From Pedobacter mucosus (GTDB taxonomy: Bacteria; Bacteroidota; Bacteroidia; Sphingobacteriales; Sphingobacteriaceae), in contig NZ_CP087585.1 in the NCBI RefSeq assembly GCF_022200785.1, positions 930,001 through 994,000 of the forward strand: DNA of 64,000 bases. Direction: 5' to 3'. A model generated the notes under the pieces. It saw only the letters and a list, made by a program, of their open reading frames with translations, ran no database searches and had not been told where the DNA came from. Of this stretch, positions 6,701 to 39,444 are shown piece after piece (the first letter of the stretch is position 1; each line of letters begins with the position of its first letter). Both the position numbers and the translations under genes were made by a program.

Positions 6701-7018
6701 AAAAATGCCACCATTTGGCAGCCAATTAGGAGTACACAGGGATATTACACAACTGATTGGGCTGTAGAAGATGGGTCATTTCTCCGCATAAACAACATTA
6801 CCATTGGTTATACTTTTAAAGCAGAATTACTGAAACGGATAAAAATTAAACGGGCTAGATTATATGCAACTGCTAATAACTTGGCAGTAATTACCACCTA
6901 TAGCGGTTACGACCCTGAAGTAAACACCAGAAGAGCCACAGGTTTAACGCCAGGAGTCGACTATTCTGCATATCCACGCAGTCGTAATTTCGTTTTCGGA
7001 TTAAATATTTCATTATAA
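3752..7018 (+). CDS. SusC-like TonB-dependent outer-membrane transporter (PUL 1)
   Basis: TonB-dependent beta-barrel that imports oligosaccharides together with the SusD lipoprotein encoded 11 bp downstream. The 1088-residue protein has a signal peptide (about 1-20, ending CSAQ), then a carboxypeptidase-regulatory-like/CNA-B domain (about 24-105, motif [19 protein letters not shown]). A plug domain follows, with the SusC signature of [41 protein letters not shown] at about residues 175-230, and then the barrel. There is no N-terminal STN domain, unlike the two other SusC proteins in this window. That fits control by the upstream HTCS rather than by a sigma/anti-sigma trans-envelope relay. The substrate cannot be read from the sequence. 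Confidence 0.96.
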   Translation: [1088 protein letters not shown]

Positions 7019-7029
7019 AATTTAAAGAG

Positions 7030-9066
7030 ATGAAAAAATTAATAACAAATAAATACTTAGCTCTAATAATGCTTTGCCTGCTAAGTGTTACCTCATGTAA
7101 AAAATTTCTTGATGAAAAGCCACTTGCATCATCATCCGAAGAAGCTGTATTTGAAAACCCAAATACTGCTTTAATGGCATTGCTTGGCGTATATAACCAG
7201 TTAGCTGGCGACAATGCCTTTGGTCAGCGTTTATCACTTATTTTTCCTTTTGATACCGATGAGATGACTGGTTATAAAAACGGAACAGATGATCAATACT
7301 TGCTAAACACTTACAATACAACATCGAGCAACAGTTTGTTAGCAAACGTTTATAATCAATTATTTAATGGCGTAGAACGTGCAAATATTTGCATTTATAA
7401 CATCCCGAGGATGGCGATGTATACTAATGGAACAGAGGCGCAAAAAAGAGATTTACAACGTTTGCATGGCGAAGCGTTAACATTACGTGCAGTTTTTTAC
7501 TTTGAACTTATTAAGCTTTGGGGCGATTTACCTGCACATTGGGAGCCTACAACTACAACAAACGAATATAACCGCCCGAAAACCAATAGAGATTTAATTT
7601 ATGATCGTTTAATAGCAGATTTAAAAACTGCTTCTACACTTGTGCCATGGCGTGGAGAAGTAGCATCTGATGAGCGCATTACCAAAGGTGCCGTTAAAGC
7701 ACTTCGTGCCAGACTTGCCATGTTTAGGGGAGGATATGCTTTGCGAAGTGAAACCAATCAAATGGAACGTAGAACAGATTACCTTAGCTATTATGCAATT
7801 GCAAGAGACGAATGTGCAGAGATTATGCAGCGTACAGATATCCATAATTTAAATCCGAGTTTCGAAAGCGTTTTCCGGGATGCATTACTTGGGCATAGGA
7901 TTGAGCCAAATGGCGAAGTGCTTTTTGAGGTTGCAATGGCCGGGAACGATGCAGATTCTGACAGTAAAAATGGCTCCTATAATAGTGTTCCAATTGGTAA
8001 TGGAACAACATCAATTGTATATTTTGGAAATTATCGCAACAGGATGCTCCCAACTTTATTTTATGCTTATAGTCAATTTGATAAGCGAAGAGATGTTAGT
8101 ATTGCTCCTTTTTCTGTTGTTAACGATAATCATATTGGCTTGCCTATGGCTGGAACCGCAACAGTTGGTCTTTATGATGGCAAATGGCGCCGTACTTGGC
8201 TTACTCCAGCAATTCCAACCACAACTAATTTAGGTCATTTTGGAATCAATTGGCCGATGATCCGTTATTCAGATGTTTTGTTAATGTATGCCGAAGCTGT
8301 AAACGGCATTACTGGCGTTACTCCAGAAGCAATAGAGGCTGTTAATTTAGTTAGAAGAAGAAGCTGGAATTCGAATGCTTTAAAAAATGTAACAGTAATT
8401 AACGGCGGATCAAATTTTACAACTGCTCCAATAGTGACTATAACTGGCGGTGGTGGAACTGGCGCTTCAGCATTGGCAACTATAGATGCAACAACAAGAA
8501 GAGTTACACGAATAGATGTAGTCAATTTAGGTAGCGGCTATACAACTGCTCCAACAATTACCATTAGCGGTGGTGCTGGTACAGGCGCAACGGCAACTGC
8601 TGCGGTTACTACGTTGTCTGAGGCGAATTTAACTTCAACACAAACCTCATCACCATCATCATTTTTAGAAGCTATTCAACAAGAAAGATTATTAGAATTT
8701 GCCAGCGAAGCAATACGCAAATATGACTTGATTCGCTGGAATCTTTTGGCTTCAAAAATTGCAGAAACCAAGACTGAACTTATAAAAATGGAAACTAGGG
8801 CAGCCCCTTATGATGCGTATGCTTTAAGGATGTTTTATCTACCAAATAGCAAAACCGGAATAGTTTGGGGAAATTCATTTTATGCGCCTGCGCCGGCAAC
8901 TGTTACCGGATATACTGGAATAAACTGGATTGCGTCTGTAACTGCGCCACTAATTAGAGAGAAGTTTGCAGTAAGCTTTGTAATTAATAAAAGTGAGATT
9001 TTACCACTTCCATTGCATGTAATTACAAATTCTGGAGGCGTAATTAAACAAGATTATGGATATTAA
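7030..9066 (+). CDS. SusD-like glycan-binding lipoprotein with Gly-rich repeat insert (PUL 1)
   Basis: Cell-surface lipoprotein that forms the lid of the SusC transporter. The 678-residue protein has a lipoprotein signal (LSVTSC, then KKFLDEKP) and SusD features: ALTLRAVFYFELIKLWGDLP at about 155, YSDVLLMYAEAVN at about 415, and C-terminal IQQERLLEFASEAIRKYDLIRWN. It is longer than the 477-residue SusD of PUL 2. One visible reason is an insert at residues about 454-525 made of two copies of a GS..TTAP..TI.GG.GTGA.A repeat. The insert sits between the VRRRSWNS helix and the conserved C-terminal ERLLEF block, where PUL 2 SusD has only a short linker. It pairs with the SusC encoded immediately upstream. 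Confidence 0.94.
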   Translation: MKKLITNKYLALIMLCLLSVTSCKKFLDEKPLASSSEEAVFENPNTALMALLGVYNQLAGDNAFGQRLSLIFPFDTDEMTGYKNGTDDQYLLNTYNTTSSNSLLANVYNQLFNGVERANICIYNIPRMAMYTNGTEAQKRDLQRLHGEALTLRAVFYFELIKLWGDLPAHWEPTTTTNEYNRPKTNRDLIYDRLIADLKTASTLVPWRGEVASDERITKGAVKALRARLAMFRGGYALRSETNQMERRTDYLSYYAIARDECAEIMQRTDIHNLNPSFESVFRDALLGHRIEPNGEVLFEVAMAGNDADSDSKNGSYNSVPIGNGTTSIVYFGNYRNRMLPTLFYAYSQFDKRRDVSIAPFSVVNDNHIGLPMAGTATVGLYDGKWRRTWLTPAIPTTTNLGHFGINWPMIRYSDVLLMYAEAVNGITGVTPEAIEAVNLVRRRSWNSNALKNVTVINGGSNFTTAPIVTITGGGGTGASALATIDATTRRVTRIDVVNLGSGYTTAPTITISGGAGTGATATAAVTTLSEANLTSTQTSSPSSFLEAIQQERLLEFASEAIRKYDLIRWNLLASKIAETKTELIKMETRAAPYDAYALRMFYLPNSKTGIVWGNSFYAPAPATVTGYTGINWIASVTAPLIREKFAVSFVINKSEILPLPLHVITNSGGVIKQDYGY

Positions 9067-9204: not shown

Positions 9205-11505
9205 ATGGGTTATAGATATAGTACGCTTACAAAACTGATTTCAATGTGCTTAATCATAGTAAGTGGAACTAAATCTATTTGCGCTCAAACTTTATATCAA
9301 AATTCAAAATTACCAATTGAAACCCGTGTTAATGATTTGCTTAAGCAAATGACTTTGGAAGATAAGGTTGCACAAATGTGCCAATACGTTGGTTTGGAGC
9401 ATATTAAAAACGCAGAGAAGAAAAGGGCTGCAAATAATAAGTTAAACAATGACGCTCAGGCTTTTTATCCAAATGTTAGTGTATCAGAAATTGAGAAGAA
9501 AATTGCCGCCGGTCAGATAGGTTCTTTTCTACACGTTCTCACTGCAAAGGAAGCGAATTACTTACAAGCACTCGCTCAGAAAAGCAGGTTAAAAATTCCT
9601 CTGCTTATCGGGATTGACGCTATTCATGGAAATGGAATGGTAAAGGGTAGTACCGTTTTTCCTTCTCCAATCAGTATTTCATCCTCTTGGGATATTGATA
9701 TCCAAAAGGAGATAGCAAAAATTACTGCCATTGAAATGAAAGCTACCGGTTCTCAATGGGCATTTAGTCCGAATTTAGATATAGCCAGGGATCCTCGTTG
9801 GGGCCGAATAGGAGAAACTTTTGGCGAGGATCCATATTTAGTTTCACAAATGGGTGTAGCTACAATTAATGGGCTGCAAACTTCGGGTGTGGCTGCAAGT
9901 GCAAAACACCTGATAGCTGGTAGTCAGCCTGTAAACGGTTTGAACAAAGCACCTACTGATATATCTGACCGTACTTTAGAAGAGATTTTTTTACCACCTT
10001 ATGAAGCTGCGGTTGCGGCAAACGTAATGACAATTATGCCCGCCCATAATGAATTAAATGGCGTTCCATCTCATGCAAATGGTTCGTTAATGGATGGTTT
10101 GCTAAGAAAAAAGTGGGGATTTAAAGGTTTTTATATCAGTGATTGGATGGATATTGAGCGCATGGCAAACTTGCACCGTACCGTTGCAAATGATAAGGAT
10201 GCCGTTTTAGCTTCAGTTAGTGCCGGGATGGATATGCACATGCACGGACCAGATTTTTATGAATATATATTGCAATTGGTTAAGGAAGGTAAGCTTTCAG
10301 AAGATAGAGTTACAGCATCAGCCCGTAGAATTTTAGAAGTAAAATTTAAAGTTGGCCTATTTGAAAACCCATTTGTTGATGAAACTAAACAAGTAATATT
10401 TTCGAAAGAACATCAAAATATAGCGCTAAGTGCAGCAAGAAAATCAATTGTATTGTTGAAAAACGACAACATATTGCCGTTAAAGACAGGAAAATATAAG
10501 CGAATTCTAGTAACAGGTCCTAACGCAGATAACCAAGCCATGTTGGGCGATTGGAGCCAACAACAACCAGACGAAAATGTGACTACGGTTTTTGAAGGGA
10601 TTAAAGCAGCAGCGCCTAAAGATTGTGAAGTCATTTTGCTTAATTCAGGTAGATTTATTCCTGAATTAAATGATAGTTTGCTGAATGATGTGGTTAAACA
10701 GGCTGCGGATTTCGATCTGATTATTGCCGTAGTAGGTGATAATTCTTTGCGTTTTGAAGGAAACAAAAGAACGGCAGGAGAAAATACTGATTTTGATGAT
10801 ATCATTTTACCAGGTCTACAGCCTCAGTTTTTGAAAGACTTACATGCTTTGGGAAAACCGATAATTGCAGTGATGGTTAATGGCCGACCGCTAGCTATTC
10901 CTTGGTTAGAAGAAAATTTGCCAGCAATTGTGGAAGCCTGGGAGCCAGGAAGTTTTGGCGGTCAGGCTATCGCTGAAATTCTCTTCGGGCAAGTTAACCC
11001 ATCTGGAAAATTGACAGTAAGTATGTTGAGAAATGTTGGGCAGATTGGGAATTATTATAACCATCGACCGTCGCAATATGCTTTAAAATATATCGGTAAA
11101 GCAACTGGTCCACTTTATCCATTCGGTTTTGGGTTAAGCTATACCAATTACAGCTATGCAAATGTACAGCTCGATAAAGTAACTATTCGTGATAGTGAAT
11201 CTGTAAAACTTAGTGTACAAGTAACTAATACTGGAGAAATGGATGGTGATGAAATTGTACAACTCTATTTAAATGGTTCCTTGAGTGCAGTAAGCAAACC
11301 AGTTAAAGAACTCAAAGGCTTTCAAAGAATTAGTCTTAAAGCTGGTGAAACTAAAAAGGTAGAATTTAACCTTCCGCCAGTAACATTTAAAAACTATGAT
11401 ATCAACATGAATTATAGTGTAGAACCCGGGGAGTTTACCTTAATGGTTGGTAGCTCATCGTTAGATAAAGATTTAACGGCGGTTAAACTGCAAATCACTA
11501 AATAA
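9205..11505 (+). CDS. GH3 beta-glycosidase, exported
   Basis: Retaining exo-beta-glycosidase (beta-glucosidase-like) that removes terminal sugars from oligosaccharides in the periplasm. The 766-residue protein has an N-terminal signal peptide (ending ICAQ) and the three-domain GH3 layout. The TIM barrel contains IDAIHGNG, DIARDPRWGRIGETFGEDP and AKHL, with the nucleophile Asp in FYISDWMD (Asp313, codon 10141). The alpha/beta sandwich carries ILVTGPNAD and WEPGSFGGQAIAEILFG. A C-terminal fibronectin-III-like domain follows (about 690-760, GDEIVQLYLN). It is the first of a closely spaced enzyme run; the next gene starts 21 bp later. Exact sugar specificity (glucose, xylose or other) cannot be read from the sequence. 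Confidence 0.95.
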   Translation: MGYRYSTLTKLISMCLIIVSGTKSICAQTLYQNSKLPIETRVNDLLKQMTLEDKVAQMCQYVGLEHIKNAEKKRAANNKLNNDAQAFYPNVSVSEIEKKIAAGQIGSFLHVLTAKEANYLQALAQKSRLKIPLLIGIDAIHGNGMVKGSTVFPSPISISSSWDIDIQKEIAKITAIEMKATGSQWAFSPNLDIARDPRWGRIGETFGEDPYLVSQMGVATINGLQTSGVAASAKHLIAGSQPVNGLNKAPTDISDRTLEEIFLPPYEAAVAANVMTIMPAHNELNGVPSHANGSLMDGLLRKKWGFKGFYISDWMDIERMANLHRTVANDKDAVLASVSAGMDMHMHGPDFYEYILQLVKEGKLSEDRVTASARRILEVKFKVGLFENPFVDETKQVIFSKEHQNIALSAARKSIVLLKNDNILPLKTGKYKRILVTGPNADNQAMLGDWSQQQPDENVTTVFEGIKAAAPKDCEVILLNSGRFIPELNDSLLNDVVKQAADFDLIIAVVGDNSLRFEGNKRTAGENTDFDDIILPGLQPQFLKDLHALGKPIIAVMVNGRPLAIPWLEENLPAIVEAWEPGSFGGQAIAEILFGQVNPSGKLTVSMLRNVGQIGNYYNHRPSQYALKYIGKATGPLYPFGFGLSYTNYSYANVQLDKVTIRDSESVKLSVQVTNTGEMDGDEIVQLYLNGSLSAVSKPVKELKGFQRISLKAGETKKVEFNLPPVTFKNYDINMNYSVEPGEFTLMVGSSSLDKDLTAVKLQITK

Positions 11506-11526: not shown

Positions 11527-12753
11527 ATGAATAAAAAACTTTTAATAATGATGTTGTTTACTGGTTTCGGCTTTGTAACACATGCTCAAAAAGCCAATTC
11601 TTTAAGTACAAAAAAGGAAATTTTATCGCTGATAAATCAAAGGTTAGTGAACGCAGCAGATCAGTACCGCTACTTTACTACACAGGTTGCAGACTCTCTT
11701 TTTCCTAAAACAATTAAAAAAGATGGCACATTAGAAAGCAGCAAAAGCTATTGGTGGTGCAGCGGTTTTTATCCAGGTACAATGCTTTATCTAAATGAAA
11801 ACCAATCCAATAAGGTTTTTACCAGAGAAATTACACATCGATTAAATTTATTAGAACGAGAGAAAAACAATAAGGGAACCCATGATTTAGGTTTCATGAT
11901 GTATTGTAGTTATGGCAATGCCCAGCGGCTTAAACCGAATAAAAGGTATGAAAATATTTTAGTCCAAAGCGCAAAATCTTTGGCAACAAGATTTAATCCT
12001 ATCACTGGAACAATCAGATCCTGGAATGCCAAAAAACCAGGCGATTTTATCGTGATTATAGATAACATGATGAATTTAGAACTATTGTTTTATGCAACAA
12101 AGGTAACCGGAGATTCATCATTTTATAAAATAGCGACAACCCATGCGGATCAAACGCTAAAAAACCATTTTAGAGAAGGTTTCAGTTCTTATCATGTTGT
12201 AGATTATAACCCTACCGATGGCTCCGTTACTGAAAGAAGAACCCATCAGGGTGCGGCAAATTCTTCAGCTTGGGCTCGAGGACAGGCTTGGGGTCTATAT
12301 GGTTTTACGGTTATGTATCGTGAAACCAAGCAGCAGAAATATTTAGATTTAGCCAATAATATTGCCGAATTTGTTCTGAATCATCCTAATATGCCGAAAG
12401 ATAAAATTCCTTACTGGGATTTTAATGCTCCAAATATTCCAAATGCGCTACGCGATGCTTCGGCGGCTGCCATAATTTCTTCTTCATTAATTGAATTGGC
12501 AACTTATAATAAAAATGCTGTGGTAGGCAAAAAATACATTAGTGCTGCTGAAGATATGATTAGCTCGCTATCAAGCTCAGCTTATTTTAATAAACTTAAG
12601 GACGATAGGGGTTTTCTGTTGAAACACAGCGTGGGTAGCTTACCACATAATTCTGAAATTGATGTGCCCTTAACTTATGCAGATTATTATTATGTAGAAG
12701 CAATGATGCGCTATAAAAGATTAGCCGCCGGGAAAAACTTATTAGGTGAATAA
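11527..12753 (+). CDS. GH88 unsaturated glucuronyl hydrolase, exported
   Basis: Hydrolyses the 4,5-unsaturated uronic acid left at the non-reducing end by polysaccharide lyases. The 408-residue protein has a signal peptide (ending THAQ) and an alpha/alpha-barrel of GH88/GH105 type. HDLGFMM supplies Asp120 and IDNMMNLELL supplies Asp179. Their spacing resembles the Asp88/Asp149 catalytic pair known in Bacillus unsaturated glucuronyl hydrolase. HQGAANSSAWARGQAWGLYG and a late YADYYYVEAMMRY segment support the family. Its presence with two lyase-like genes downstream is the best evidence that the PUL substrate contains uronic acids. Only one base separates its stop from the likely GH5 start. Confidence 0.92.
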   Translation: MNKKLLIMMLFTGFGFVTHAQKANSLSTKKEILSLINQRLVNAADQYRYFTTQVADSLFPKTIKKDGTLESSKSYWWCSGFYPGTMLYLNENQSNKVFTREITHRLNLLEREKNNKGTHDLGFMMYCSYGNAQRLKPNKRYENILVQSAKSLATRFNPITGTIRSWNAKKPGDFIVIIDNMMNLELLFYATKVTGDSSFYKIATTHADQTLKNHFREGFSSYHVVDYNPTDGSVTERRTHQGAANSSAWARGQAWGLYGFTVMYRETKQQKYLDLANNIAEFVLNHPNMPKDKIPYWDFNAPNIPNALRDASAAAIISSSLIELATYNKNAVVGKKYISAAEDMISSLSSSAYFNKLKDDRGFLLKHSVGSLPHNSEIDVPLTYADYYYVEAMMRYKRLAAGKNLLGE

Positions 12754-12754
12754 T

Positions 12755-13894
12755 ATGAAAGGGTGCTTAAAATATAAAAAGCAATTTTGGATTAAGTTTA
12801 ACTTAATGATGATGGTCGCAATATTACCATTTTTTGGAATTGCAGGCGAAAGAGATGCTAATCCGAAGGTAACCACTTTCCTAATTACAAAAGGCATAAA
12901 CATTAGTGCATGGTTATCGCAAGCTAATTTAACGCCAAAAGAGAAAGTTGATTATTTCACAGAAAAGGATTTACAACAATTGGCGGCTCTTGGCTTTGAT
13001 CATATCAGACTGCCTTTTAACGAAAATCAACTGTATAGCGTTGATGGTAAAAGAAATGAAGCAACTTTTACGCTTATCCACAATGTGATAAAATGGTGTA
13101 AAGAAGCCAACATGCGGGTTATTTTAGATTGTCACCAAACTTATGATCATGATTTTTCAAAATATAGCAGCATCGTTTTATTTAAAGAACCAGAAGCATA
13201 CAACCGTTTCGAAAAACTATGGCAAAAATTGAGTTCAGAGTTTAGGGAATATCCAAATGAGTTAGTGGCCTATGAAATTTTAAACGAACCAAATTCAAAA
13301 GAAAATGCGTCCTGGAATATAATATCAAACAAAATCATTAAAGCAATACGCAAATCAGAACCTGAGCGAATCATTTTATTAGGTTCAAATAAAGCAAACC
13401 GAGTAACTACTTTTCCTGATTTACAAATTCCAAAAAACGATCCTAATATCATTTTGAGTTTTCATTTTTATTACCCGTATTTGTTAACACACTACAAAGC
13501 AGATTTTTACAAGGCAATAAAAGATATTAATGTTCCAATTAATTACCCTGGCCAAATCGTAACTGACAGCGTGGTGAACACACTTAATGATGAGGGAAAG
13601 AAAGTTATGAAAAGCTACAATGGTATTAATAATAAGCAAACGATGTTCGCTTTAATTAAACCCGCAATTGATATTGCAAAAAAAGCCGGTTTAAGAATTC
13701 ATTGTGGCGAGTTTGGTAGCAATTTCGCCTATCCAAATAAAGATCTTCAACTGCGTTGGATGCAGGATATCGTTGCAATTTTTAAAGAAAATGATATCCC
13801 GTACACAGTTTGGGGTTATAGAAAGCAATTTGGAATTTTTAATGATAACAGACAAATAAAGGATCAGCGATACCTAGATGCATTGGTAAAATAA
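12755..13894 (+). CDS. GH5 family glycoside hydrolase (cellulase-like), exported
   Basis: Endo- or exo-acting retaining beta-glycosidase of the GH5 clan-A fold. I use the ATG at 12755; a GTG at 12746 would overlap the previous gene and add three residues. An N-terminal hydrophobic segment (MMMVAILPFFGIAG) is a signal peptide. Visible motifs are GINISAWL, HIRLPFNE, ILDCHQTYDHDF, the acid/base Glu178 in YEILNEPN, HFYYP, and the nucleophile Glu319 in IHCGEFGS. The closing VWGYRKQFGIF is also typical. Length (380 residues) is normal for a single-domain GH5, with no carbohydrate-binding module. Substrate is uncertain because GH5 subfamilies include glucanases, mannanases and others. It is co-transcribed with GH88 (1 bp apart) and the pyruvyltransferase-like pair (20 bp downstream). 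Confidence 0.9.
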   Translation: MKGCLKYKKQFWIKFNLMMMVAILPFFGIAGERDANPKVTTFLITKGINISAWLSQANLTPKEKVDYFTEKDLQQLAALGFDHIRLPFNENQLYSVDGKRNEATFTLIHNVIKWCKEANMRVILDCHQTYDHDFSKYSSIVLFKEPEAYNRFEKLWQKLSSEFREYPNELVAYEILNEPNSKENASWNIISNKIIKAIRKSEPERIILLGSNKANRVTTFPDLQIPKNDPNIILSFHFYYPYLLTHYKADFYKAIKDINVPINYPGQIVTDSVVNTLNDEGKKVMKSYNGINNKQTMFALIKPAIDIAKKAGLRIHCGEFGSNFAYPNKDLQLRWMQDIVAIFKENDIPYTVWGYRKQFGIFNDNRQIKDQRYLDALVK

Positions 13895-13914: not shown

Positions 13915-15180
13915 ATGACACAAGATAGAAGAACATTCATTAAAAACATTTCATTTGCCTCTGCTGGCGCAATGCTATTGCCGATAACTGATGCAATTGC
14001 AAACAGCGTTTTCAAAGGAAAAAAGATACTTATTCGTTCGGGTTGGCAAACTGTAAATATTGGAGACATTGGACACACTTTCGGCTTATTGGCCATTATG
14101 GAAAAATTTTTGCCAGAGATGGAATTGGTGCTTTGGATAAAATCTTACGATAGGGGTGTTGAGCCGTTGTTGCGGAAAAACTTTCCAAAAGTGAAAGTAA
14201 TTAAGAGCAAAATGGAAGATAATGCTGCTGATTTGAAAGAAGCTTTCGAGGAATGCGCATTTATGATTCATAGTTCTGGACCATTTGTAACTGCACAAAA
14301 AGAACTTGAAATGTGGTCTAATACGACAAAGAAGCCATTTGGTATCTACGGGGTTTCATTGGATGAAGTTAGTCCTGAATTACAGAATTTAATTTCAAAA
14401 GCAGCATTTTTTTATTGTCGAGATACAGAGTCTTTAAAGTATTTTAAATCGTTGAACAACAAATGTCCAATACAGGGCTTTGCACCTGATTCTACCTTCG
14501 GAATTAAAGTTTATGATGATGAAAAGGCAAATGCATATCTTGATAAGGTTGGATTAAAAAGAGGAGAATTTATTTGTGTTATCCCCAAATTGCGCCATAC
14601 GGCTTATTGGCAGCTTGTAGGTAGAGAACCATCAGAAAGTGAAAAAGAAAAATATGCCATTTCAATGGCACATAAAAAAAATGATGGTGAAAAAATGCGA
14701 AATGTAATTATTGCTTGGGTAAAGGCTACAAATCTCCAAGTATTAATTTGTCCAGAAGTTACATATCAAGTCGAACTTGGAAAGGAAACTTTATATGATC
14801 CGCTTCCATCAGATATCAAAAAGAATGTTGTTTGGAGAGATGCTTTTTGGGGACCAGATGAAGCTACAAGTGTGTATAAACATGCTCGGGCAATGGTGTG
14901 TTGCGAGCCGCATTCATTGATTATGGCGGTAGCAAATAATATTCCAAGTATCCATGTAAAACAAGCTCAAGATACCCGAAAAGGGCAGATGTGGCGAGAT
15001 ATAGGTTTAGGAGATTGGTACTTTTTAATGGATGAAACCCCATCATCACAGATTTCTGCAAAGCTGCTTGACATACATAAAAACTATGCAGAAGCACAAA
15101 AAACCACCAAAAAAGCATTTGATTTTGTGGTTAACATTCAAAAGGAAACCATGCAGGTAGTAAAGAAATTTGTAGTTTAA
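13915..15180 (+). CDS. Polysaccharide pyruvyltransferase-like protein 1 with Tat-type leader
   Basis: Member of the polysaccharide pyruvyltransferase (PS_pyruv_trans/CsaB-like, GT-B fold) superfamily. The leader has a twin-arginine motif (DRRTFIKN, residues about 4-11) followed by a hydrophobic stretch, predicting Tat export. The body begins ILIRSGWQTVNIGDIGHT, the usual N.GD start of this family, then HSSGP, GIYGVSLDE, CRDTESLKYF and the C-terminal EPHSLIMAVANNIPSIHV block, where the family keeps a histidine. A paralogue follows after 10 bp. Known members use cytoplasmic phosphoenolpyruvate to add pyruvyl ketals during synthesis, so an exported copy inside a degradative PUL is odd. It may instead bind or remodel pyruvylated glycan. 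The fold is fairly certain; the function is not. Confidence 0.82.
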   Translation: MTQDRRTFIKNISFASAGAMLLPITDAIANSVFKGKKILIRSGWQTVNIGDIGHTFGLLAIMEKFLPEMELVLWIKSYDRGVEPLLRKNFPKVKVIKSKMEDNAADLKEAFEECAFMIHSSGPFVTAQKELEMWSNTTKKPFGIYGVSLDEVSPELQNLISKAAFFYCRDTESLKYFKSLNNKCPIQGFAPDSTFGIKVYDDEKANAYLDKVGLKRGEFICVIPKLRHTAYWQLVGREPSESEKEKYAISMAHKKNDGEKMRNVIIAWVKATNLQVLICPEVTYQVELGKETLYDPLPSDIKKNVVWRDAFWGPDEATSVYKHARAMVCCEPHSLIMAVANNIPSIHVKQAQDTRKGQMWRDIGLGDWYFLMDETPSSQISAKLLDIHKNYAEAQKTTKKAFDFVVNIQKETMQVVKKFVV

Positions 15181-15190
15181 TTCAAAAGAT

Positions 15191-16462
15191 ATGCTCAATA
15201 GAAGAACTTTTGTTAAAAGCACTGCAGCACTGGCATTTTTAGCTGCAATTGGAAATGCAGGCAGCGTAACAGCAGGTATAAAAGCAAAGAAAACTGTTTT
15301 ACTTTGTTCTTCGTGGCAAACTTTTAACATTGGCGATATTGCCCACACACCGGGTGTTTTAGCAATTTTAGAGAAACAACTCCCCAATGTTGATGTAATT
15401 TTGTGGCCTCACGATGTGGCAAATGGTGTTAAAGAAATGTTAGAAAAGCGTTTCCCAAAATATAAAATTGTGCAGAGTGAGGTTGATATACAGGCTGCCT
15501 TTAAAAAAGCCGATCTTTTACTTCATGGGAGTGGACCCTCGCTCGTTGGGCGAAATAGCATTGTTAAATGGGTAAAACAAACAGGGAAACCATATGGAAT
15601 TTATGGTATCACTTTTCCTGGTGTTTACGCTGCAAAAAATGTTACTATAAAAGCCACGCCTTTAGATATTGATTTGGTTAATAAAGCGGCATTTGTATTT
15701 TTTAGAGATTCTATTTCGCTAAAATTTGCGAAAGATAATGGTTTAACCTGCCCGATTATGGAATTCGGACCTGATGGAACGTTTGCTGTAGACTTAAATA
15801 ATGAAGCTGCAGCGCTTGCTTTTATGAAAGAACATGGGTTGGAAGAAGGAAAATTTATGTGCTGCATTCCACGATATCGTTTTACGGAAGAATGGTTGGC
15901 AAAAGGTAAAAATAGACCATTCAACCAACAACATGTAGACTATAATATGAAAATGAAAGACCATGATAATGGGCCATTAAGAGATGCGATTACCGCCGTA
16001 GTTAGACAAACAAATATGAAAATATTGATCTGTCCGGAAGATGAAACACAGGTTGCGTTAGGAAAATCGCTATTGCTGGATCAACTACCGGAAGATGTAA
16101 AGAAAAAAGTTGTATGGCGAGATAAATATTGGCTTACTGATGAAGCTTTAAGTACATATAAACGTTCTGCAGGATTATTTGGTCTGGAAATGCACTCTCC
16201 GATTATTTGTATTGGCCAAGGTATACCGGCTGTTGTTTGTCGCTTTTACGAACAAAGTACAAAAGGTTTTATGTGGAAGGATATTGGTTTAAACGACTGG
16301 CTTTTCGATATGGATGAACCCGCTCAGGTAGAGAAATTGGTGCCAACTGTATTGTCGATTGCCTTAAATCCTAAAGCTGCAAAAGCAAAAGCCCTAAAAG
16401 CAAGAGCATTCGTGCAAAAAAGGCAAAAAGAAACCATGCAAACTGTATTTAAATCTTTATGA
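15191..16462 (+). CDS. Polysaccharide pyruvyltransferase-like protein 2 with Tat-type leader
   Basis: Paralogue of the preceding gene, 423 residues. The leader is again Tat-like (NRRTFVKSTAALAFLAAIG) with a small-residue cleavage region. The body shares the same landmarks: VLLCSSWQTFNIGDIAHTPG, HGSGPSLVG, GIYGITFPG, FFRDSISLKFAK, ICPEDETQVALG, VVWRDKYWLTDEA, and LEMHSPIICIGQGIPAVV with the conserved His. The parallel order of blocks makes a tandem duplication followed by divergence the simplest history. Its stop overlaps the LamG-like gene by 4 bp, implying translational coupling. No obvious catalytic loss is visible by eye, but the acceptor and donor are unknown. Confidence 0.82.
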   Translation: MLNRRTFVKSTAALAFLAAIGNAGSVTAGIKAKKTVLLCSSWQTFNIGDIAHTPGVLAILEKQLPNVDVILWPHDVANGVKEMLEKRFPKYKIVQSEVDIQAAFKKADLLLHGSGPSLVGRNSIVKWVKQTGKPYGIYGITFPGVYAAKNVTIKATPLDIDLVNKAAFVFFRDSISLKFAKDNGLTCPIMEFGPDGTFAVDLNNEAAALAFMKEHGLEEGKFMCCIPRYRFTEEWLAKGKNRPFNQQHVDYNMKMKDHDNGPLRDAITAVVRQTNMKILICPEDETQVALGKSLLLDQLPEDVKKKVVWRDKYWLTDEALSTYKRSAGLFGLEMHSPIICIGQGIPAVVCRFYEQSTKGFMWKDIGLNDWLFDMDEPAQVEKLVPTVLSIALNPKAAKAKALKARAFVQKRQKETMQTVFKSL

Positions 16463-17337
16463 GAAACCTAATATTTTTTTTGCTGATGCTGTTCAGCTTA
16501 AACTTAATTTTTAGCGGAGAAATCATTGCACAAGAAAAGCCAAACAGCATTTTAAGTGTTATGAAAAAACGGAACAACTTAGTCGCATTTTGGGATTTTG
16601 GAGATACCACAGGAAAGCCGATCGGTGGTACAGCAAAAAATATTAAACTTTTACCTTTCAAAAAACCAAAATATAGTAACGAAGGTCCCATATCAGGACG
16701 ATCAATTTCACTAGATGGGAAGTCGGATTATTGGTATATCCAACATGATAAAAGCAGCGGATTGGATATAAAAACCAATGCGGTAACAGTTATCGCCTGG
16801 GTAAAATGGAGCGGTGAAACTGGTTTTGTAGCTGGTAAATGGAACGAATCTGAAAATGGTGGCAAACGGCAGTATGGTTTGTTTGTCTCGCTTCCACATT
16901 ACAATGGAGCCAGCAAGGTTTGTGGTCATATCTCTAAAAATGGTGGAGCCACACCGCCGTTTCCTTATAGCATTGATTATTCAGCAAGTCCGCAAAAAGT
17001 GGAAACCAATATCTGGACTTGTATTGCATTTACCTATGATGGTAAGTATATCAAATCTTACTGGAACGGTGAATATAAATCGAGCGAACCCGAACTAATC
17101 AATAATACAAAAGGCTTTTTAACAAACCAACCAAATGGCTTAACGCAAGTTAAAAATCCATACTACTATCTTGATGGCATGGGAAATAACGGTTCTGATT
17201 TTACAGTTGGTGGTGTGCAATTGAAAAAAGGAATGGGCAATTTTTTTAAAGGTGAAATAGGGGGCATTGCGGTTTTCAATAGTGCTTTAACGCAAGCTGA
17301 AATCCTAAAAATATCCAATACAGCAAACATTAAATAA
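16459..17337 (+). CDS. LamG/concanavalin A-like secreted protein
   Basis: Secreted 292-residue protein of jelly-roll (LamG/laminin-G-like) type. An N-terminal signal peptide (FFLLMLFSLNLIFSGEIIA) is followed by a region opening with LVAFWDFGD and containing VTVIAWVKWSGETGFVAGKW, YGLFVSL, TCIAFTYDGKYIKSYWNGE and a closing GEIGGIAVFNSALTQAEI. This is the standard signature of LamG-like sandwiches. Such domains bind or sometimes cleave glycans. There is no recognisable glycosidase motif, so it may be a free carbohydrate-binding protein or an unrecognised enzyme. The ATG overlaps the upstream stop by 4 bp (ATGA), so translation is likely coupled to pyruvyltransferase-like protein 2. Confidence 0.8.
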   Translation: MRNLIFFLLMLFSLNLIFSGEIIAQEKPNSILSVMKKRNNLVAFWDFGDTTGKPIGGTAKNIKLLPFKKPKYSNEGPISGRSISLDGKSDYWYIQHDKSSGLDIKTNAVTVIAWVKWSGETGFVAGKWNESENGGKRQYGLFVSLPHYNGASKVCGHISKNGGATPPFPYSIDYSASPQKVETNIWTCIAFTYDGKYIKSYWNGEYKSSEPELINNTKGFLTNQPNGLTQVKNPYYYLDGMGNNGSDFTVGGVQLKKGMGNFFKGEIGGIAVFNSALTQAEILKISNTANIK

Positions 17338-17347
17338 TAAACTTAGC

Positions 17348-18811
17348 ATGATTTTTAAAAACTGCAGGTTGCTGCTTTACAGCATGAGGAAAACAAGATA
17401 CTTGCCATTAGCAATTTTACTATTTGGTAATTTCATAGCCACAGCTCAAACACCAAATTGGGGCATGTCTAGGGTAGCCAATGTGCAATTGCCTTCAGGT
17501 GAAAAGACGCAACGCATCAATAATACACCTAAAATAATCGCGGCTGCTACGCCTCCAATGGGCTGGAATTCATGGAATAACTTTGGCCTGCAGGTTACCG
17601 AAGATGAATTTAAAAAGCAGGTCGATTATGTAGCTGAAAAATTAAAGCCAGTTGGATATAGTTATGTAATAATTGATGCAAGCTGGTATTCGCCAAGTGT
17701 TTCTGCTGATAAAAAAAGCAAATATCACCATGCGACATATGCCAAACATGATGCGGTTTTAGATAAATACGGCCGGTATTTGCCTGCTGATAACAAATTT
17801 CCATCTGCAAAAGGCTCATTTAAATATATGGCAGATTATGTTCATCGTAAAGGTTTAAAGTTTGGATTACATATTCAAAGGGGTATTCCTTGGCAGGCAG
17901 TTGAACAAGATTTACCAATTAAAGGCAGTAGCATGAAAGCCAAAGATATTGCTAATCCAGCTGATATATGCCTTTGGTTTAATGCAACTTATGGTATAGA
18001 CATGAGTGTTTCTGGGGCGCAAGATTATTATAATTCCTTATTTGAACTTTATGCTAGTTGGGAAGTGGATTTTTTAAAAGTCGACGACCTTTCGATGCCA
18101 TATCACGCTGATGAAATTACAGCGATCAGAAAAGCTATAGAAAAATCTGGCAGGAATATGGTATTTAGTACTTCACCCGGCTCAACGCCAATTTCGGCAA
18201 GGTATCATGTGCTAAACAATGCTGATATGTTTAGGGTTTCTTCTGATTTTTGGGATACCTGGCCGCAGTTAAAACAACAATTTTCTTACGCAAAGTCGTG
18301 GGCAACATTTGCAGTAAACGCACCTGGTAGGTGGGCCGATTTGGATATGCTTCCAGTTGGTAAAATAGCGACACGAAGCGGCGATTCTGGCGGAGAACGT
18401 TTTACCCGATTTACGAAGGATGAACAGTATACGTTGGTTACATTGTGGAGCATCTGCCGATCGCCACTTATCATTAGCAATGACTTAACTCAAAATGATG
18501 ATTTCACGCTTAAACTCCTGACAAATAAAGAAGTAATAGCTGTAAACCAAGAAGGTTCCATGCAAAAGGAAGCTTTCAATGACAAGGGAATAGTGATCTG
18601 GGAGGCTAATGCTAAAGAAAATGCAAAATACTTATCCATCTTTAATTTAAATGATCAAGAAGAAAACATTAATATTCCTTTTATTAACCTAAAGCTGGGG
18701 CAGAAATATAAGGTAAAAAATTTATGGAGTGGAGAAGAAATGGGTAAAATGGAGAATAATTTAACCGCAAAAATCCCTGCACATGGGGCAGTATTATATC
18801 ATTTAAAATAA
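17348..18811 (+). CDS. GH27 alpha-galactosidase-like hydrolase, exported
   Basis: Retaining exo-hydrolase that removes alpha-linked galactose (some GH27 members act on alpha-N-acetylgalactosamine or beta-L-arabinopyranose). The family signature TPPMGWNSWNNFG is followed by YVIIDASWY. The nucleophile is Asp246 in DFLKVDDLSMPY, and the acid/base is Asp300 in FRVSSDFWDTW (numbering from 17348). GRWADLDMLPVG, a WSICRSPLIISNDL segment and a C-terminal beta-sandwich (about 395-487) complete the layout. An in-frame ATG at 17384 would give a more typical signal peptide (ending ATAQ), so either start is possible. An insertion around residues 115-145 (KSKYHHATYAKHD..) is longer than in the classical enzymes. 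Gaps of 10-11 bp on both sides place it inside the operon. Confidence 0.9.
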   Translation: MIFKNCRLLLYSMRKTRYLPLAILLFGNFIATAQTPNWGMSRVANVQLPSGEKTQRINNTPKIIAAATPPMGWNSWNNFGLQVTEDEFKKQVDYVAEKLKPVGYSYVIIDASWYSPSVSADKKSKYHHATYAKHDAVLDKYGRYLPADNKFPSAKGSFKYMADYVHRKGLKFGLHIQRGIPWQAVEQDLPIKGSSMKAKDIANPADICLWFNATYGIDMSVSGAQDYYNSLFELYASWEVDFLKVDDLSMPYHADEITAIRKAIEKSGRNMVFSTSPGSTPISARYHVLNNADMFRVSSDFWDTWPQLKQQFSYAKSWATFAVNAPGRWADLDMLPVGKIATRSGDSGGERFTRFTKDEQYTLVTLWSICRSPLIISNDLTQNDDFTLKLLTNKEVIAVNQEGSMQKEAFNDKGIVIWEANAKENAKYLSIFNLNDQEENINIPFINLKLGQKYKVKNLWSGEEMGKMENNLTAKIPAHGAVLYHLK

Positions 18812-18822: not shown

Positions 18823-19737
18823 ATGAAAACGCTAATAAAATTTTATGTTGTCTCATTTCTGACAATATTATTAGGCTTGCAACTACACGCTCAAACTAAC
18901 AAAACGTTGCGTGTATTGATGATTGGCAATAGCTTTTCGCAAAATGCGACTAGGTTTTTACCACAAATGGCTGCTGAAGTAAATACCAAAATCATTTTTG
19001 GTCGTGCAGAAATGGGTGGTTGCTCACTACAAAGACATTGGGATTCTGTTGTCGTAAATAACCTCGATACCAGCAGAGGGAAAGCATATAATGGCAAGTC
19101 CTTAAAACAACTTTTATCCTCACAAAAATGGGATGTAGTAACGCTGCAACAATATTCGCTATTATCTGGTGATGAGGCAACTTATTTTCCATATGCAAAA
19201 AATCTATTCGACTTGGTAAAAAGCTATCAACCTAGTACTCAAGTTATAATTCACCAAACTTGGGCATATCGTGCAGACGCAAAAAGTTTCGGGAAAATTA
19301 GCAATGAAAAAAGGGCGAAAAACCAAGAAGAAATGTGGCAAAAATCAAGAGCTGCTTATCATAAAATGGCAGCGATGTTAGGTAATTTAAATATTCTTCC
19401 TTCTGGTGATGCATTCTATAATATTGCCACTGATAAAAAATGGAGTTTTGTAAAAGATGCCAATTACGATTATAAAAACCCGCTTTATCCAGCCTTGCCA
19501 AATGAAAAAAATTCAATCAATGTAGGCTACACCTTCGGCGATGATAAAAAATTAAAATTTGATCCAAACCATGCAAATGATGCTGGTTGTTACCTCGCAG
19601 GATTAATCTGGTATAAAATGCTGCTAAAACAAGATCCAATAAAGCTGGCCTTTAAACCAAAAACGGTTGATGATGATTTTTCAAAATTTTTAAAGGAAAC
19701 TGCCGTAAATACCATAGATGGTAGTGAAAGAAAATAG
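18823..19737 (+). CDS. SGNH-fold hydrolase (DUF4886-like), probable carbohydrate esterase
   Basis: Secreted 304-residue protein with a signal peptide ending LHAQ. SGNH blocks are visible: block I LMIGNSFSQN (catalytic Ser), block II around AEMGGCSLQRHW, block III VVTLQQYSLLSGD, and block V DPNHANDAGCYLAG with the Asp-x-x-His pair. This matches the DUF4886 group common in Bacteroidota PULs. The likely role is removing acyl groups such as acetyl from the polysaccharide so that glycosidases or lyases can act. The substrate is not determinable here. The gene ends 7 bp before the preferred start of the heparinase II/III-type gene. Confidence 0.8.
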   Translation: MKTLIKFYVVSFLTILLGLQLHAQTNKTLRVLMIGNSFSQNATRFLPQMAAEVNTKIIFGRAEMGGCSLQRHWDSVVVNNLDTSRGKAYNGKSLKQLLSSQKWDVVTLQQYSLLSGDEATYFPYAKNLFDLVKSYQPSTQVIIHQTWAYRADAKSFGKISNEKRAKNQEEMWQKSRAAYHKMAAMLGNLNILPSGDAFYNIATDKKWSFVKDANYDYKNPLYPALPNEKNSINVGYTFGDDKKLKFDPNHANDAGCYLAGLIWYKMLLKQDPIKLAFKPKTVDDDFSKFLKETAVNTIDGSERK

Positions 19738-19744
19738 AATTGTT

Positions 19745-21655
19745 ATGTATAAAAAGTTAAAAATATTACTTACTTGTTTATTTCTATTTGCACTGGTTCT
19801 GCAAACTAAGGCACAAACAGATCCTTATGCTTTATTAACATTGGCGCCTGTTGATTTATCAAGGGTAAAAGAGATTGAAGCCATGTTGCCTAATCAACCA
19901 AAAGGTATTGGAGATCCAATTGAAATGCGTGCCAGGTGGGATAGTTTATACAGGACAAATAAATTCAAGAAACTAATTTCAGAGGCTGATTCCATCAGTG
20001 TTTCGCCTTTTCCAAAACTAACTCCAGCAATTTATATGAGCTATTTTGGTGGTAAAGATTCCGAGACTTCGAAACGCTTTATCATGAAACGTAGAATGTT
20101 GTTAACCAAATTGGTTTGGGCAGAATGTTTAATCAATAAGGGTAAATATATGCCCGCAATTTTAACTGCTTTAACTGACATTTTAAATACACCAACCTGG
20201 ACTTTTCCAGCAGAAGATCAGAAAAAATTAAATTATGATGGTAAATTATACACTATAGGTTTAAGTTCATCAGCTTATGGAAGTGATATTGCGGAATCTT
20301 ATTATTTATTGAAAAGCAAATTCTCGGCCCAAATGAGGCAACAAATACTAACCCTTTTACACCAGCGGATTTTTGAACCTACTCTTAACGCCATCAAAAA
20401 TAAAAATGCCAATGGTGAATTTACTTCCTTAATGGATACTGGAAATCATAATTCTGTAACGTTAGCTTATGTAACAATGGCCGCACTAGCCGTAATTGAA
20501 AATAAAGAACAGCGAGCAGTTTTTGTAGCCATAGGAGAAAGATATTCGAAAAATTTTTTAAGAGGTTACCTTGAAGATGGTTATTGTACCGAAGGTGTGG
20601 GTTATTACAGCTATGGTTTTGGTCACTACACATTTTTAAGAGACGCACTTTGGCAGGCGACAAAAGGAAAGATAGATTTATTCTCCGATCCTAAAGTGTC
20701 AAAAATGGCGATGTTTGCCCCTAAAGCAGAAATAATTAATAATATGTTCCCAGCAATTGGCGACTGTGTACAATACGCAAAACCCGAAGGCCAGCTAATG
20801 CACTACCTCAACAAAAATCTTGGTTTGGGTTTAGCTGCATATAATGATGCGCCCTCCTACATGGAACAGCCTGCACTTTGTTACCTCATGTACTATTTTC
20901 CAAATGCTGCAACAGCTGCGAAACTTAATGAAATTGAAAAAGAAGGTACAATTAGAGATTATTTTGAGAAAGCAGGCGTATTGACTGTTCGTCCGATAAA
21001 AGGTTCTTCATTTAATTTTGGTGCAACTTTAAAAGGCGGACATAATGCTGAACATCACAACCACAATGATGTTGGATCTTACACAATTTTTGTTGGTACT
21101 GAACTTCTTACGGGCGACGTTGGACTTGCCACTTACACGCCAAAATATTTCGGCAAAGAGAGATATGATTTGTATAAAACAACAGCTTCTTACGGTCATA
21201 ATGTGCCTTTGGTTAACGGTATTCAACAACACTTTGGAAAAGATGCCCGGGCTGTAGTTAGTAAAACAAGTTTTACCAACAATAAAGATGTGTTTGAATT
21301 AGATATCACTTCCGCCTATAAAGATCCATCATTAAAACAACTAATAAGAACTTTTACCTATGATCGATCTGCCAAGGGTTATTTAATGGTTACCGATCGG
21401 TTTTCTTTTAATACAGCAAGTACGTTTGAAACGACAATAATTACACGTTACGGATGGAAAAAAACAAGTGATAACACCATTGAAATTAATGGAGAAAAGG
21501 AAAAGCTGAAAGTGACAATTACATCATCAAAAAGTAGTTTTACAATTAGTGATGAAGTGATTGATGAGGGCCCAAAACCATTTACCAGAATTGCAATTAA
21601 ATTAAATGATAAATCTTCAGCTGGTTTTGTGACCATGAAATTCGACAAACTATGA
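19745..21655 (+). CDS. Heparinase II/III family polysaccharide lyase, exported
   Basis: Lyase that cleaves uronic-acid-containing polysaccharides by beta-elimination, producing the unsaturated ends that GH88 removes. I prefer the ATG at 19745 (MYKKLKILL, signal peptide ending KAQ) over the upstream 19718 ATG, which overlaps the SGNH gene and lacks a better leader. The N-terminal two-thirds is an alpha-toroid (MDTGNHNSVTLAYVTMAAL, EGVGYYSYGFGHYTF). The C-terminal beta-sandwich starts near residue 415 with the hallmark GGHNAEHHNHNDVGSYTIF (His437, His440, Asp442) and ELLTGDVGLATYTP. The length (636 residues) fits PL12/15/17/21-type families, but I cannot assign one. The gene end overlaps the next by 4 bp. 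Confidence 0.87.
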   Translation: MYKKLKILLTCLFLFALVLQTKAQTDPYALLTLAPVDLSRVKEIEAMLPNQPKGIGDPIEMRARWDSLYRTNKFKKLISEADSISVSPFPKLTPAIYMSYFGGKDSETSKRFIMKRRMLLTKLVWAECLINKGKYMPAILTALTDILNTPTWTFPAEDQKKLNYDGKLYTIGLSSSAYGSDIAESYYLLKSKFSAQMRQQILTLLHQRIFEPTLNAIKNKNANGEFTSLMDTGNHNSVTLAYVTMAALAVIENKEQRAVFVAIGERYSKNFLRGYLEDGYCTEGVGYYSYGFGHYTFLRDALWQATKGKIDLFSDPKVSKMAMFAPKAEIINNMFPAIGDCVQYAKPEGQLMHYLNKNLGLGLAAYNDAPSYMEQPALCYLMYYFPNAATAAKLNEIEKEGTIRDYFEKAGVLTVRPIKGSSFNFGATLKGGHNAEHHNHNDVGSYTIFVGTELLTGDVGLATYTPKYFGKERYDLYKTTASYGHNVPLVNGIQQHFGKDARAVVSKTSFTNNKDVFELDITSAYKDPSLKQLIRTFTYDRSAKGYLMVTDRFSFNTASTFETTIITRYGWKKTSDNTIEINGEKEKLKVTITSSKSSFTISDEVIDEGPKPFTRIAIKLNDKSSAGFVTMKFDKL

Positions 21656-22710
21656 AAATAATCCTAACTACATTCTTTTGTATCTTAACTAGCGTAACAT
21701 TTTCTCAGAATAAAAATGAGGGAATACTGTTATTCCAATCTGGCTTTGAGAAAGGAACTAAGCTTGTTAAATCTAATGCACAAAGTGATATTTTAATTGG
21801 CGTAGATAATTCAGTAGCAGCACCAAACGATTGGACAAGATTCAGCAAAAAGGATGGATATCCAATTGCTGGAGAGTTTCGCATATTTTACGAAGGTGGC
21901 GACAGTACTAAACGTAAATCGGCATTAGTGCCCGATCCGAAAAATCCAAAAAATACGGTGCTCAAATTTTCAGTTTTTGAATCGAATGCTGTAAAAAAAG
22001 AAACAGATGAAGTTGCATATAAAACAAGAATACAAGGGCAAGTAAATAATGTTTCTGAGGGAATACAGCGTTATTATCAGTCGGTAAGAATGTACTTTCC
22101 ATCTACAACAATGGATTTATTGAAGAAATATCCTGAGCAAATTAATTGGTATTCATTAGCCGAGTTTTGGAATAACGCAGCTTGGGGAAATGTGCCTAAA
22201 GATCCTTACCGGCTTACGGTTGGGATGGGGCATAAGCCCGGGACAGAAAACCCATTTTATTTTCATTTTAGCTGCGATAAATATCGTATCCAGTTTAAAG
22301 CTGATGGAAAGACTCCTGAAAAATATATCCCTACCGATATTAAAAATGCAAATAATGAGACATTCAATATCCCGTCAGATACTTGGATAACTGTGGAATA
22401 TTATTTCCAAGAAGGAAATTGGAAAGCTACAACTACTCGTCCTGCTGGTCATTTTTACATGACTGTCCAGGCTGATGGCGGGAAGAAAATAGTATTGTTT
22501 AATGAAAGGGTGGCAACAATTCATCCAAATGCTACTCAACCTGATGGATTAACAGTTTACCATCCGATGAAATTTTACACCAATAAACAAATCGCAGATT
22601 ATATGAAGGCAAATCATACGCCAATGGAAATTCTTTGGGATGATTTGAAAATTTACAGTAATAAAATTCCAAATGATGACGCTTTACAAGTAGAATTAGC
22701 AAAACCATAA
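21652..22710 (+). CDS. Secreted polysaccharide lyase-like jelly-roll protein
   Basis: 352-residue exported protein with a signal peptide (ILTTFFCILTSVTFSQ). The body resembles the concanavalin A-like polysaccharide lyases (heparin lyase I/glucuronan lyase-like group). It opens with LLFQSGFEKGT and has the strand pattern KNPKNTVLKFSVFESN, GIQRYYQSVRMYFP, NWYSLAEFWNNAAWG, PFYFHFSCDKYRIQF, DTWITVEYYFQEGN and MEILWDDLKIYSN. These are features of that fold, but no catalytic triad can be fixed by eye. The ATG overlaps the heparinase II/III stop (ATGA), suggesting the two are made together as a lyase pair. It could instead be a binding protein or an unclassified lyase family. Confidence 0.65.
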   Translation: MKIILTTFFCILTSVTFSQNKNEGILLFQSGFEKGTKLVKSNAQSDILIGVDNSVAAPNDWTRFSKKDGYPIAGEFRIFYEGGDSTKRKSALVPDPKNPKNTVLKFSVFESNAVKKETDEVAYKTRIQGQVNNVSEGIQRYYQSVRMYFPSTTMDLLKKYPEQINWYSLAEFWNNAAWGNVPKDPYRLTVGMGHKPGTENPFYFHFSCDKYRIQFKADGKTPEKYIPTDIKNANNETFNIPSDTWITVEYYFQEGNWKATTTRPAGHFYMTVQADGGKKIVLFNERVATIHPNATQPDGLTVYHPMKFYTNKQIADYMKANHTPMEILWDDLKIYSNKIPNDDALQVELAKP

Positions 22711-23993: not shown

Positions 23994-24003
23994 TTTTTAC
24001 AAT

Positions 24004-32993: not shown

Positions 32994-33173
32994 GTTGATT
33001 TTATGAAGATAAAGCTAGTATTAAATAATGAAATAAAAATCATTTAATGTGCCATTATTAGAGCTGGTATAACTAAAACATAATTCTTATTTTTTTTTAT
33101 GTGTGTGAACATATCTTTTTGGTCTCTATACCTATAACTATCCAAGTATATCAGAATATTACTTTAATCGCTA

Positions 33174-34331: not shown

Positions 34332-34353
34332 ATATTAACTGTAAATCCAAAAA

Positions 34354-34378
34354 CCGGAAGTGTTCGTACCACTTCCGG
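34354..34378 (+). terminator. Hairpin between fecR and susC (PUL 2)
   Basis: CCGGAAGTG and CACTTCCGG form a perfect 9-bp stem around a 7-nt loop, starting 23 bp after the FecR stop. The tail (AAATAGTT) is not a clear U-tract. It may therefore be an attenuator or mRNA-stabilising hairpin rather than a full terminator, letting susCD be expressed separately from fecR. A comparable hairpin occupies the same place in PUL 3. Confidence 0.55.
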
Positions 34379-34445
34379 AAATAGTTGGCGTTAAGCCAAT
34401 AAGGATGAAACTAATCGATCAAACAACTAATTAAATCTTAACCAA

Positions 34446-37979: not shown

Positions 37980-38001
37980 TTATATTAATACGTAGATTAT
38001 C

Positions 38002-39435: not shown

Positions 39436-39444
39436 ATTAAAGTT

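Follow-up and report, generated by a model that had tools for sequence, protein, structure and literature searches.

Does a protein family known for attaching pyruvate to glycans also contain enzymes that take it off? The question is raised by a 64,000-nucleotide stretch of the Pedobacter mucosus genome (NZ_CP087585.1, positions 930,001 to 994,000; the window), in which two neighboring genes, A and B, encode polysaccharide pyruvyltransferase (PSPT)-like proteins of family PF04230. Both proteins start with a leader resembling that of twin-arginine translocation (Tat) substrates, and both genes are embedded in a polysaccharide utilization locus (PUL). Our preferred answer, to which we assign a probability of about 0.45, is that A and B are catabolic enzymes exported from the cytoplasm, which would split pyruvate off the ketals of a uronate-containing exopolysaccharide whose source is probably bacterial. 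The comparisons presented below support the existence of a PF04230 subfamily that appears mostly exported, catabolic and altered in its active site. From its features we infer that the target group is pyruvyl and the chemistry hydrolytic, that the paralogues divide the labor, and what the substrate may be.

A and B are separated by 10 bp on a common strand and matched PF04230 with 54.5 and 62 bits, respectively, well above the curated cut-off of 25.3 bits. They were the only two matches to this family in the whole 4.93-Mb genome. In both proteins a hydrophobic stretch follows the twin-arginine motif (RRTFIK in A, RRTFVK in B), as in Tat substrates, and the genome encodes TatC (231 bits), the translocase component that was searched for. 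The original prediction of two PF04230 paralogues, each with an RRTFxK leader and a hydrophobic segment, was thus confirmed. Motif, hydrophobic stretch, TatC and a control with shuffled leaders (see below) indicate that the leaders are probably of Tat type. Because they share 40% identity and were assigned by a quick maximum-likelihood tree to separate, well-supported clades, A and B are probably old paralogues, and a recent tandem duplication was rejected on the basis of this separation. NCBIfam had a name for neither protein, and when A, B and the profile of the subfamily were searched against PDB sequences, nothing matched. Both proteins are predicted to adopt a fold for which searches with the models returned UDP-GlcNAc 2-epimerases as the best matches, closely followed by GT-B glycosyltransferases. 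No solved pyruvyltransferase was found among the best 50 matches, which we do not regard as counter-evidence.

For comparison across the subfamily, 67 loci and the window (first 30 kb) were passed through an open reading frame (ORF) finder. A member was found in 58 of the 67, giving 59 loci with the window, and the 65 members were reduced to 63 after removal of identical copies. In the nine loci devoid of a member (L014, L016, L071, L072, L078, L080, L112, L115 and L122) a longer overlapping ORF that was kept instead, a broken gene or a remote match is probably the cause; the interrupted Acidobacteria copy (L016) was excluded. The 59 loci are not independent, as L012 and L104 represent one place and several loci share a genome.

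The classical donor site for phosphoenolpyruvate (PEP) is described for two enzymes. R217 and R337 contact PEP in a model of Pvg1p (PMC4872226), and R148, H308 and K328 are critical in CsaB, in which R306 was docked (PMC10435577). The arginine of the R-x-H motif (Pvg1p R337, CsaB R306) is replaced by E331 in A and E333 in B. None of the 63 members carried arginine in this column, which held Glu in 62 and Asp in one, compared with R in ten, S in two, A in one and K in one of 14 classical PF04230 proteins. A HMMER alignment to Pvg1p (5ax7) matched the E331 column with R337 in a 17.3-bit stretch, and R169 with R217 in a weak 3.1-bit stretch. R169, corresponding to Pvg1p R217 and CsaB R148, was present in 62 of the 63 members (one masked X) and in all 14 classical proteins, and H333 (Pvg1p H339, CsaB H308) was invariant in both sets. 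K356 was found in 63/63, yet 23 residues behind the histidine, as against 20 residues in CsaB and eight of the 14 classical proteins; its equivalence to CsaB K328 and Pvg1p K361 was assigned by eye, and MAFFT left the two unaligned. Moreover, N48, G50 and D192 occurred in 63/63 and D51 in 60/63 members. Four further positions were specific to the subfamily: E281, W312 and K356 (63/63) and H54 (61/63) had no counterpart in the same columns of the classical proteins (0/14). The pocket that corresponds to the classical PEP site is therefore modified, not lost, with Arg169, His333 and probably K356 kept. The original prediction of a different activity is partly supported: the position of the R-x-H arginine is acidic in all members, but two, probably three, of the PEP-contact residues are retained.

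A Tat-type leader, defined by twin arginines and a hydrophobic stretch, was detected in 48 of the 63 distinct members, compared with 2.5 expected from shuffled leaders, and in 0/14 classical proteins. Five more had a hydrophobic stretch alone close to the start, which in three of them lies in an upstream extension or short start and perhaps represents no leader. These statistics support the export of A and B that had been proposed, as a prediction from sequence.

A and B lie inside a PUL of about 25 kb in which SusC, SusD, carbohydrate-active enzymes and a sensor are all present (SusD and enzymes identified by Pfam, SusC and regulator by reading of the translations and by homologues). With SusC/D, glycoside hydrolases (GH), a lyase, an esterase and a major facilitator superfamily (MFS) transporter, it is a Bacteroidota PUL, in line with the earlier description of the operon as otherwise composed of glycan-degrading enzymes. 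The operon neighbors of the subfamily genes comprised 120 proteins (excluding the window, L012, L063-L066, L103 and L104), 25 of which were picked as informative and, with five others, scanned singly, while 81 of the remaining 95 were tallied by family. Among the 30 were GH88, GH28, GH29, GH65/95, rhamnosidase, GH39, GH35, GH123, GH43 and GH2 proteins, GDSL and BD-FAE esterases, SSF and MFS transporters and Hepar_II_III lyases. FAD oxidoreductases, amidase-like, Antibiotic_NAT, BNR-repeat and AP_endonuc_2 proteins and a DUF7133/cytochrome protein were found as well; four of the 30 matched no family. The neighborhoods of classical genes (77 of 80 ORFs scanned with Pfam, the pyruvyltransferases themselves included) contained Glycos_transf_1 (17), Glycos_transf_2 (6), flippases (4) and Wzy-type proteins, none of which appeared among the 25 commonest of the 127 families in the 81 tallied subfamily neighbors. 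Since single glycosyltransferases could hide beyond these 25 families, the loci were also searched with eight E. coli glycan-assembly proteins, those of colanic acid (phmmer, E 1e-5). Homologues were found in none of the 59 subfamily loci, window included. In contrast, they were present in 9/9 loci of classical PF04230 genes, so that by this measure the subfamily does not reside in glycan-assembly clusters. A biosynthetic role was rejected on this context and on the acidic residue 331. Neither of the two outcomes that the original prediction had named as speaking against it was observed: a complete donor site combined with cytoplasmic localization did not appear, and homologues were not located in biosynthesis clusters. 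Taken together, the catabolic, exported character of the subfamily is well supported.

In the Bacteroidota, gene neighborhoods tie the subfamily to a putative uronate lyase. Among 148 genomes, a lyase of the window type (>540 bits) was found in five, own genome included, with the next match at 142 bits, and PSPT-like genes of A's clade (>450 bits) occurred in exactly these five. The two genes were 1.4 to 6.8 kb apart in 5/5 genomes. A random deal would yield this co-occurrence with p 1.8e-9 (once in 5.5e8), a value that treats the genomes as independent though they are relatives. Likewise, nine of ten Bacteroidota genomes carried a heparinase-type lyase within 10 kb of a PSPT-like gene, compared with 0.18 expected from PF07940 counts, which miss divergent lyases; the Spirosoma record stands outside these ten. 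Genomes G042 and G087, with PSPT-like copies of 40% identity, harbor a heparinase-type lyase of a different kind, accompanied in G087 by a close relative of the window MFS transporter in an adjoining gene. Near the Verrucomicrobiota copies, lyases were examined in part of the loci. For the lyase found with clade-A genes, the best solved relatives are 8r75, 8r6z and 8r70 (134 to 130 bits), which are structures from a study of PL33 lyases (PMC11848413). PL33 lyases thus resemble the partner of A and B and are not relatives of A and B; at just 134 bits to 8r75, the window lyase need not share their substrate.

According to the mechanism we propose, A and B would retain the cleft of a saccharide ketal-pyruvyltransferase, including residues able to hold the pyruvyl carboxylate (R169, K356), with E331 or E333 in place of the arginine thought to aid PEP binding. 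E331 and H333, perhaps with E281 or D192, would act as acid and base in opening a 4,6-O-pyruvyl ketal with water. This would be the reverse of synthesis, yielding free pyruvate and a diol sugar, and PEP would not be needed. Lyase, GH88, GH27, GH5 and GH3 would then complete the breakdown of the glycan. The two paralogues may be specialized for ketals that differ in position or stereochemistry, or for two different sugars. Gellan-, xanthan- and rhizobial exopolysaccharide-like glycans were considered as candidate substrates. The S. fredii exopolysaccharide carries 4,6-pyruvyl-alpha-Gal-(1-4)-alpha-GlcA-(1-3)-alpha-GlcA branches on a backbone of beta-linked Glc/Gal, with O-acetyls (PMC4270759). 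A rhizobial polymer of this type is our guess at the substrate, as it would suit GH27, uronate lyase, GH88, GH5, GH3 and the esterases.

Several observations weigh against pyruvate release. The pyruvyl group as target is derived from homology, and specificity for pyruvyl need not extend to every member of PF04230. Four of the 14 classical proteins have no arginine at R-x-H, which indicates that the superfamily does not strictly depend on this residue. With two, probably three, of four PEP-contact positions retained, PEP binding may persist in weakened form. A leader is absent from 10/63 members; these include an Oscillospiraceae protein with a GH28 gene upstream, 22 bases off, which suggests that a catabolic context is able to persist without export. 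No heparinase-type lyase lies within 10 kb of the copy in genome G487, nor was one present among the annotated genes over 31 kb around the Spirosoma plasmid copy. Many Verrucomicrobiota copies are solitary or have neighbors of various kinds, so their context is non-biosynthetic rather than specifically glycan-degrading. Furthermore, known degraders can free pyruvylated sugars intact (PMC6090015, PMC12827396), and a depyruvylase is hence not needed in every pathway.

The alternative that survives best, though we consider it unlikely, is an exported enzyme of GT-B fold that acts on some other bond of a uronate glycan, by glycosidic cleavage, transglycosylation or attack on another ketal or acetal, with no pyruvyl involved. 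GT-B folds host varied chemistry, and the best matches of the models, epimerases and glycosyltransferases, fit this diversity. A catalytic pair could be formed by E281 and E331, both acidic and specific to the subfamily, and some loci contain FAD oxidoreductases, AP_endonuc_2 or a protein that carries a 3-keto-disaccharide hydrolase domain. However, if nothing bearing a carboxylate were bound, one would hardly expect R169, H333 and probably K356 to be conserved.

Clearly less probable is a non-catalytic, lectin-like protein that is exported to bind a pyruvylated or uronate glycan and aids the lyase or SusCD. The close lyase partnership would be explained, and a LamG protein is also encoded in the PUL; yet ten polar positions (N48, D51, H54, S121, R169, D192, E281, E331, H333 and K356) are constant in at least 60/63 members, seemingly beyond the needs of binding, and leaderless forms exist. 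Proteins exported in soluble form by Tat are typically folded enzymes, which counts against a mere binder as well. We give still less credit to a PEP-free transfer in which pyruvyl, or another acyl-ketal, would pass from the polymer to some small acceptor molecule, for salvage or protection. Transferases gave the superfamily its name and two paralogues could work in sequence, but the rest is conjecture and the loci show nothing that hints at an acceptor. Finally, a working PEP-dependent ketal-pyruvyltransferase, exported or kept in the cytoplasm despite its leader, is the least probable explanation, since the R-x-H arginine is acidic throughout, homologues of the eight assembly queries were found in none of the 59 loci and we know of no PEP supply in the periplasm, even though R169, H333 and probably K356 correspond to CsaB R148, H308 and K328 and some members are leaderless. 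A precedent in its favor is Pvg1p, which acts outside the cytosol, in the Golgi, on imported PEP (PMC4872226).

To return to the subfamily proposed to release pyruvate, members were found in Bacteroidota, Verrucomicrobiota, one Oscillospiraceae MAG (metagenome-assembled genome) and one actinobacterium. The closest copies of A among named records belong to a Niabella MAG (75% identity) and Pedobacter arcticus (57%). Relatives were detected in six of 147 other related genomes, every one of the same genus. In draws from whole phyla, for which the best few candidates per genome were scored (E 1e-30) and counts are lower bounds, the subfamily occurred in at least 1/394 other Bacteroidota genomes and at least 29/240 Verrucomicrobiota genomes, including an Opitutaceae MAG, with up to six copies per genome; in four of the 29 the match was partial and remote only. 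The Oscillospiraceae MAG was the sole one with a copy among 245 genomes of its order; its leaderless protein is 54% identical to B. Further copies were found on a Spirosoma plasmid and in the actinobacterium Nonomuraea. A phage or plasmid origin was rejected: there were no phage matches, 72 pattern matches in viral contigs gave no confirmed one, and the plasmid collection contributed just the Spirosoma and Nonomuraea records.

B's clade (27 rows) is rich in Verrucomicrobiota, which suggests gene transfer. The tree was built by a quick method with midpoint root, and the split between the main group (60 rows) and the rest was weakly supported (49), with the two most remote members, L120 and L121, on the classical side. 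The classical protein L133 (branch length 10) was placed within B's clade, surely by long-branch attraction. Another type of tandem occurs in locus L070 (genome G700, Verrucomicrobiota), where a copy close to A's clade is joined to one from a third clade that is confined to Verrucomicrobiota in our sample; pairing of unlike paralogues may therefore have arisen repeatedly. At the Pedobacter arcticus locus (L012:2255-11662) two heparinase-type lyases are flanked by two clade-A genes. One of these lyases is part of a 1401-aa protein with an additional part, and a GH88-like gene behind looks broken. At the Oscillospiraceae locus (L015:5832-12564) the PSPT-like gene and GH28 are surrounded by three paralogues of about 400 aa without Pfam match.

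Table. Genes and sequence features of the PUL around A and B (window coordinates).
Feature	Position	Strand	Basis and remarks
HTCS (hybrid two-component regulator)-like	74..3418	+	Reading of translation; homologues in G042 and G087 loci
SusC-like TonB-dependent receptor	3752..7018	+	Reading of translation and homologues
SusD-like	7030..9066	+	Pfam
GH3	9205..11505	+	Pfam
GH88-like unsaturated uronyl hydrolase	11527..12753	+	Pfam weak, 27.2 bits; best solved relative 3wiw, 348 bits
GH5	12746..13894	+	Pfam; best solved relative CelC endoglucanase (1cec)
PSPT-like protein A	13915..15180	+	421 aa; PF04230; Tat-type leader MTQDRRTFIKN
Leader of A	13915..14010	+	About residues 1-32; pLDDT <50 over residues 1-34 of predicted model
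A: E331-P-H333-S334 in place of classical R-x-H	14905..14916	+	Alignment
PSPT-like protein B	15191..16462	+	423 aa; PF04230; Tat-type leader MLNRRTFVKS
Leader of B	15191..15277	+	About residues 1-29
B: E333-M-H335-S336, same replacement	16187..16198	+	Alignment
LamG / concanavalin-like	16459..17337	+	Pfam
GH27	17348..18811	+	Pfam; best solved relative Abp beta-L-arabinopyranosidase (4nx0)
DUF4886	18823..19737	+	Pfam
Heparinase II/III-type lyase (PL33-like)	19718..21655	+	Pfam; closest solved 8r75, 8r6z, 8r70; partner of clade-A genes
Family-less 352-aa protein	21652..22710	+	Kept in Niabella copy of locus
MFS transporter	22761..23993	+	794-bit relative adjoins PSPT-like gene in G087
BD-FAE-type alpha/beta esterase	23983..24963	+	Family search
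DUF2334 / polysaccharide-deacetylase-like	24954..25691	+	Family search

The order of the PUL genes is largely shared with the Niabella locus, where 12 PUL proteins recur in the same order, the tandem of A and B included; GH3 and MFS had no match within the 20 kb examined there. The 5' end of the regulator gene may fall outside the window start. After 4nx0, the next solved relatives of the GH27 protein were a putative alpha-N-acetylgalactosaminidase and alpha-galactosidases. The SusD-like protein contains an internal glycine-rich direct repeat at about residues 456-529 (VINGGSNFTTAP...GASA and VVNLGSGYTTAP...GATA), which looks unusual for a SusD fold. The 352-aa protein, conserved in the Niabella PUL, had neither a Pfam match nor a significant PDB match and is a possible new lyase or binding protein. 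A second PUL-like set at 32409-41812 consists of a sigma factor (- strand), an anti-sigma-like protein, SusC, SusD and a GH92-like protein (39518-41812), all named from their translations.

A and B share PF04230 with CsaB of Paenibacillus alvei, Pvg1p of S. pombe (5ax7) and WcaK of E. coli. Common to the CsaB/Pvg1p type and the subfamily are N-x-G-D, R-(D/E), the equivalents of D192 and H333 and probably the lysine of the PEP site. Unlike these enzymes, the subfamily has Glu/Asp for the arginine of R-x-H and its own H54, E281, W312 and K356 columns, mostly bears a Tat-type leader, and resides in PULs or other loci without assembly-query homologues. Two known systems attack pyruvylated glycans and leave the pyruvyl group in place. 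PvGal-ase of Bacillus HMA207, a GH1 beta-galactosidase, cuts the glycosidic bond and frees pyruvylated galactose (PMC6090015). PL8 xanthan lyases, which act on a pyruvylated, glucuronate-containing exopolysaccharide, work by beta-elimination, and the pyruvyl remains on the released mannose (PMC12827396). In the accessible open-licence literature we found neither a described carbohydrate pyruvate-ketal hydrolase or depyruvylase nor an exported PF04230 protein in a PUL, and no depyruvylating enzyme was found in the accessible parts of a review (PMC6801904).

Pyruvate ketals decorate many bacterial exopolysaccharides, among them xanthan, succinoglycan, other rhizobial exopolysaccharides and some capsules (PMC6801904, PMC4270759, PMC10881899). 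Tentatively, and with somewhat less than even odds, the proteins described here may represent a widespread and hitherto unrecognized class of exported PF04230 depyruvylases in which the PEP-binding arginine became a catalytic acid and the ketal chemistry was reversed. Spread by gene transfer among Verrucomicrobiota, Bacteroidota, Firmicutes and Actinomycetota, such enzymes would open up the pyruvylated exopolysaccharides of bacteria to attack by uronate lyases. If A and B indeed remove the ketal, they would supply a missing step in the recycling of pyruvylated polymers and a tool for trimming or analyzing them. They would also offer an uncommon example of how a single charge reversal in the donor site makes a hydrolase out of a biosynthetic transferase fold.

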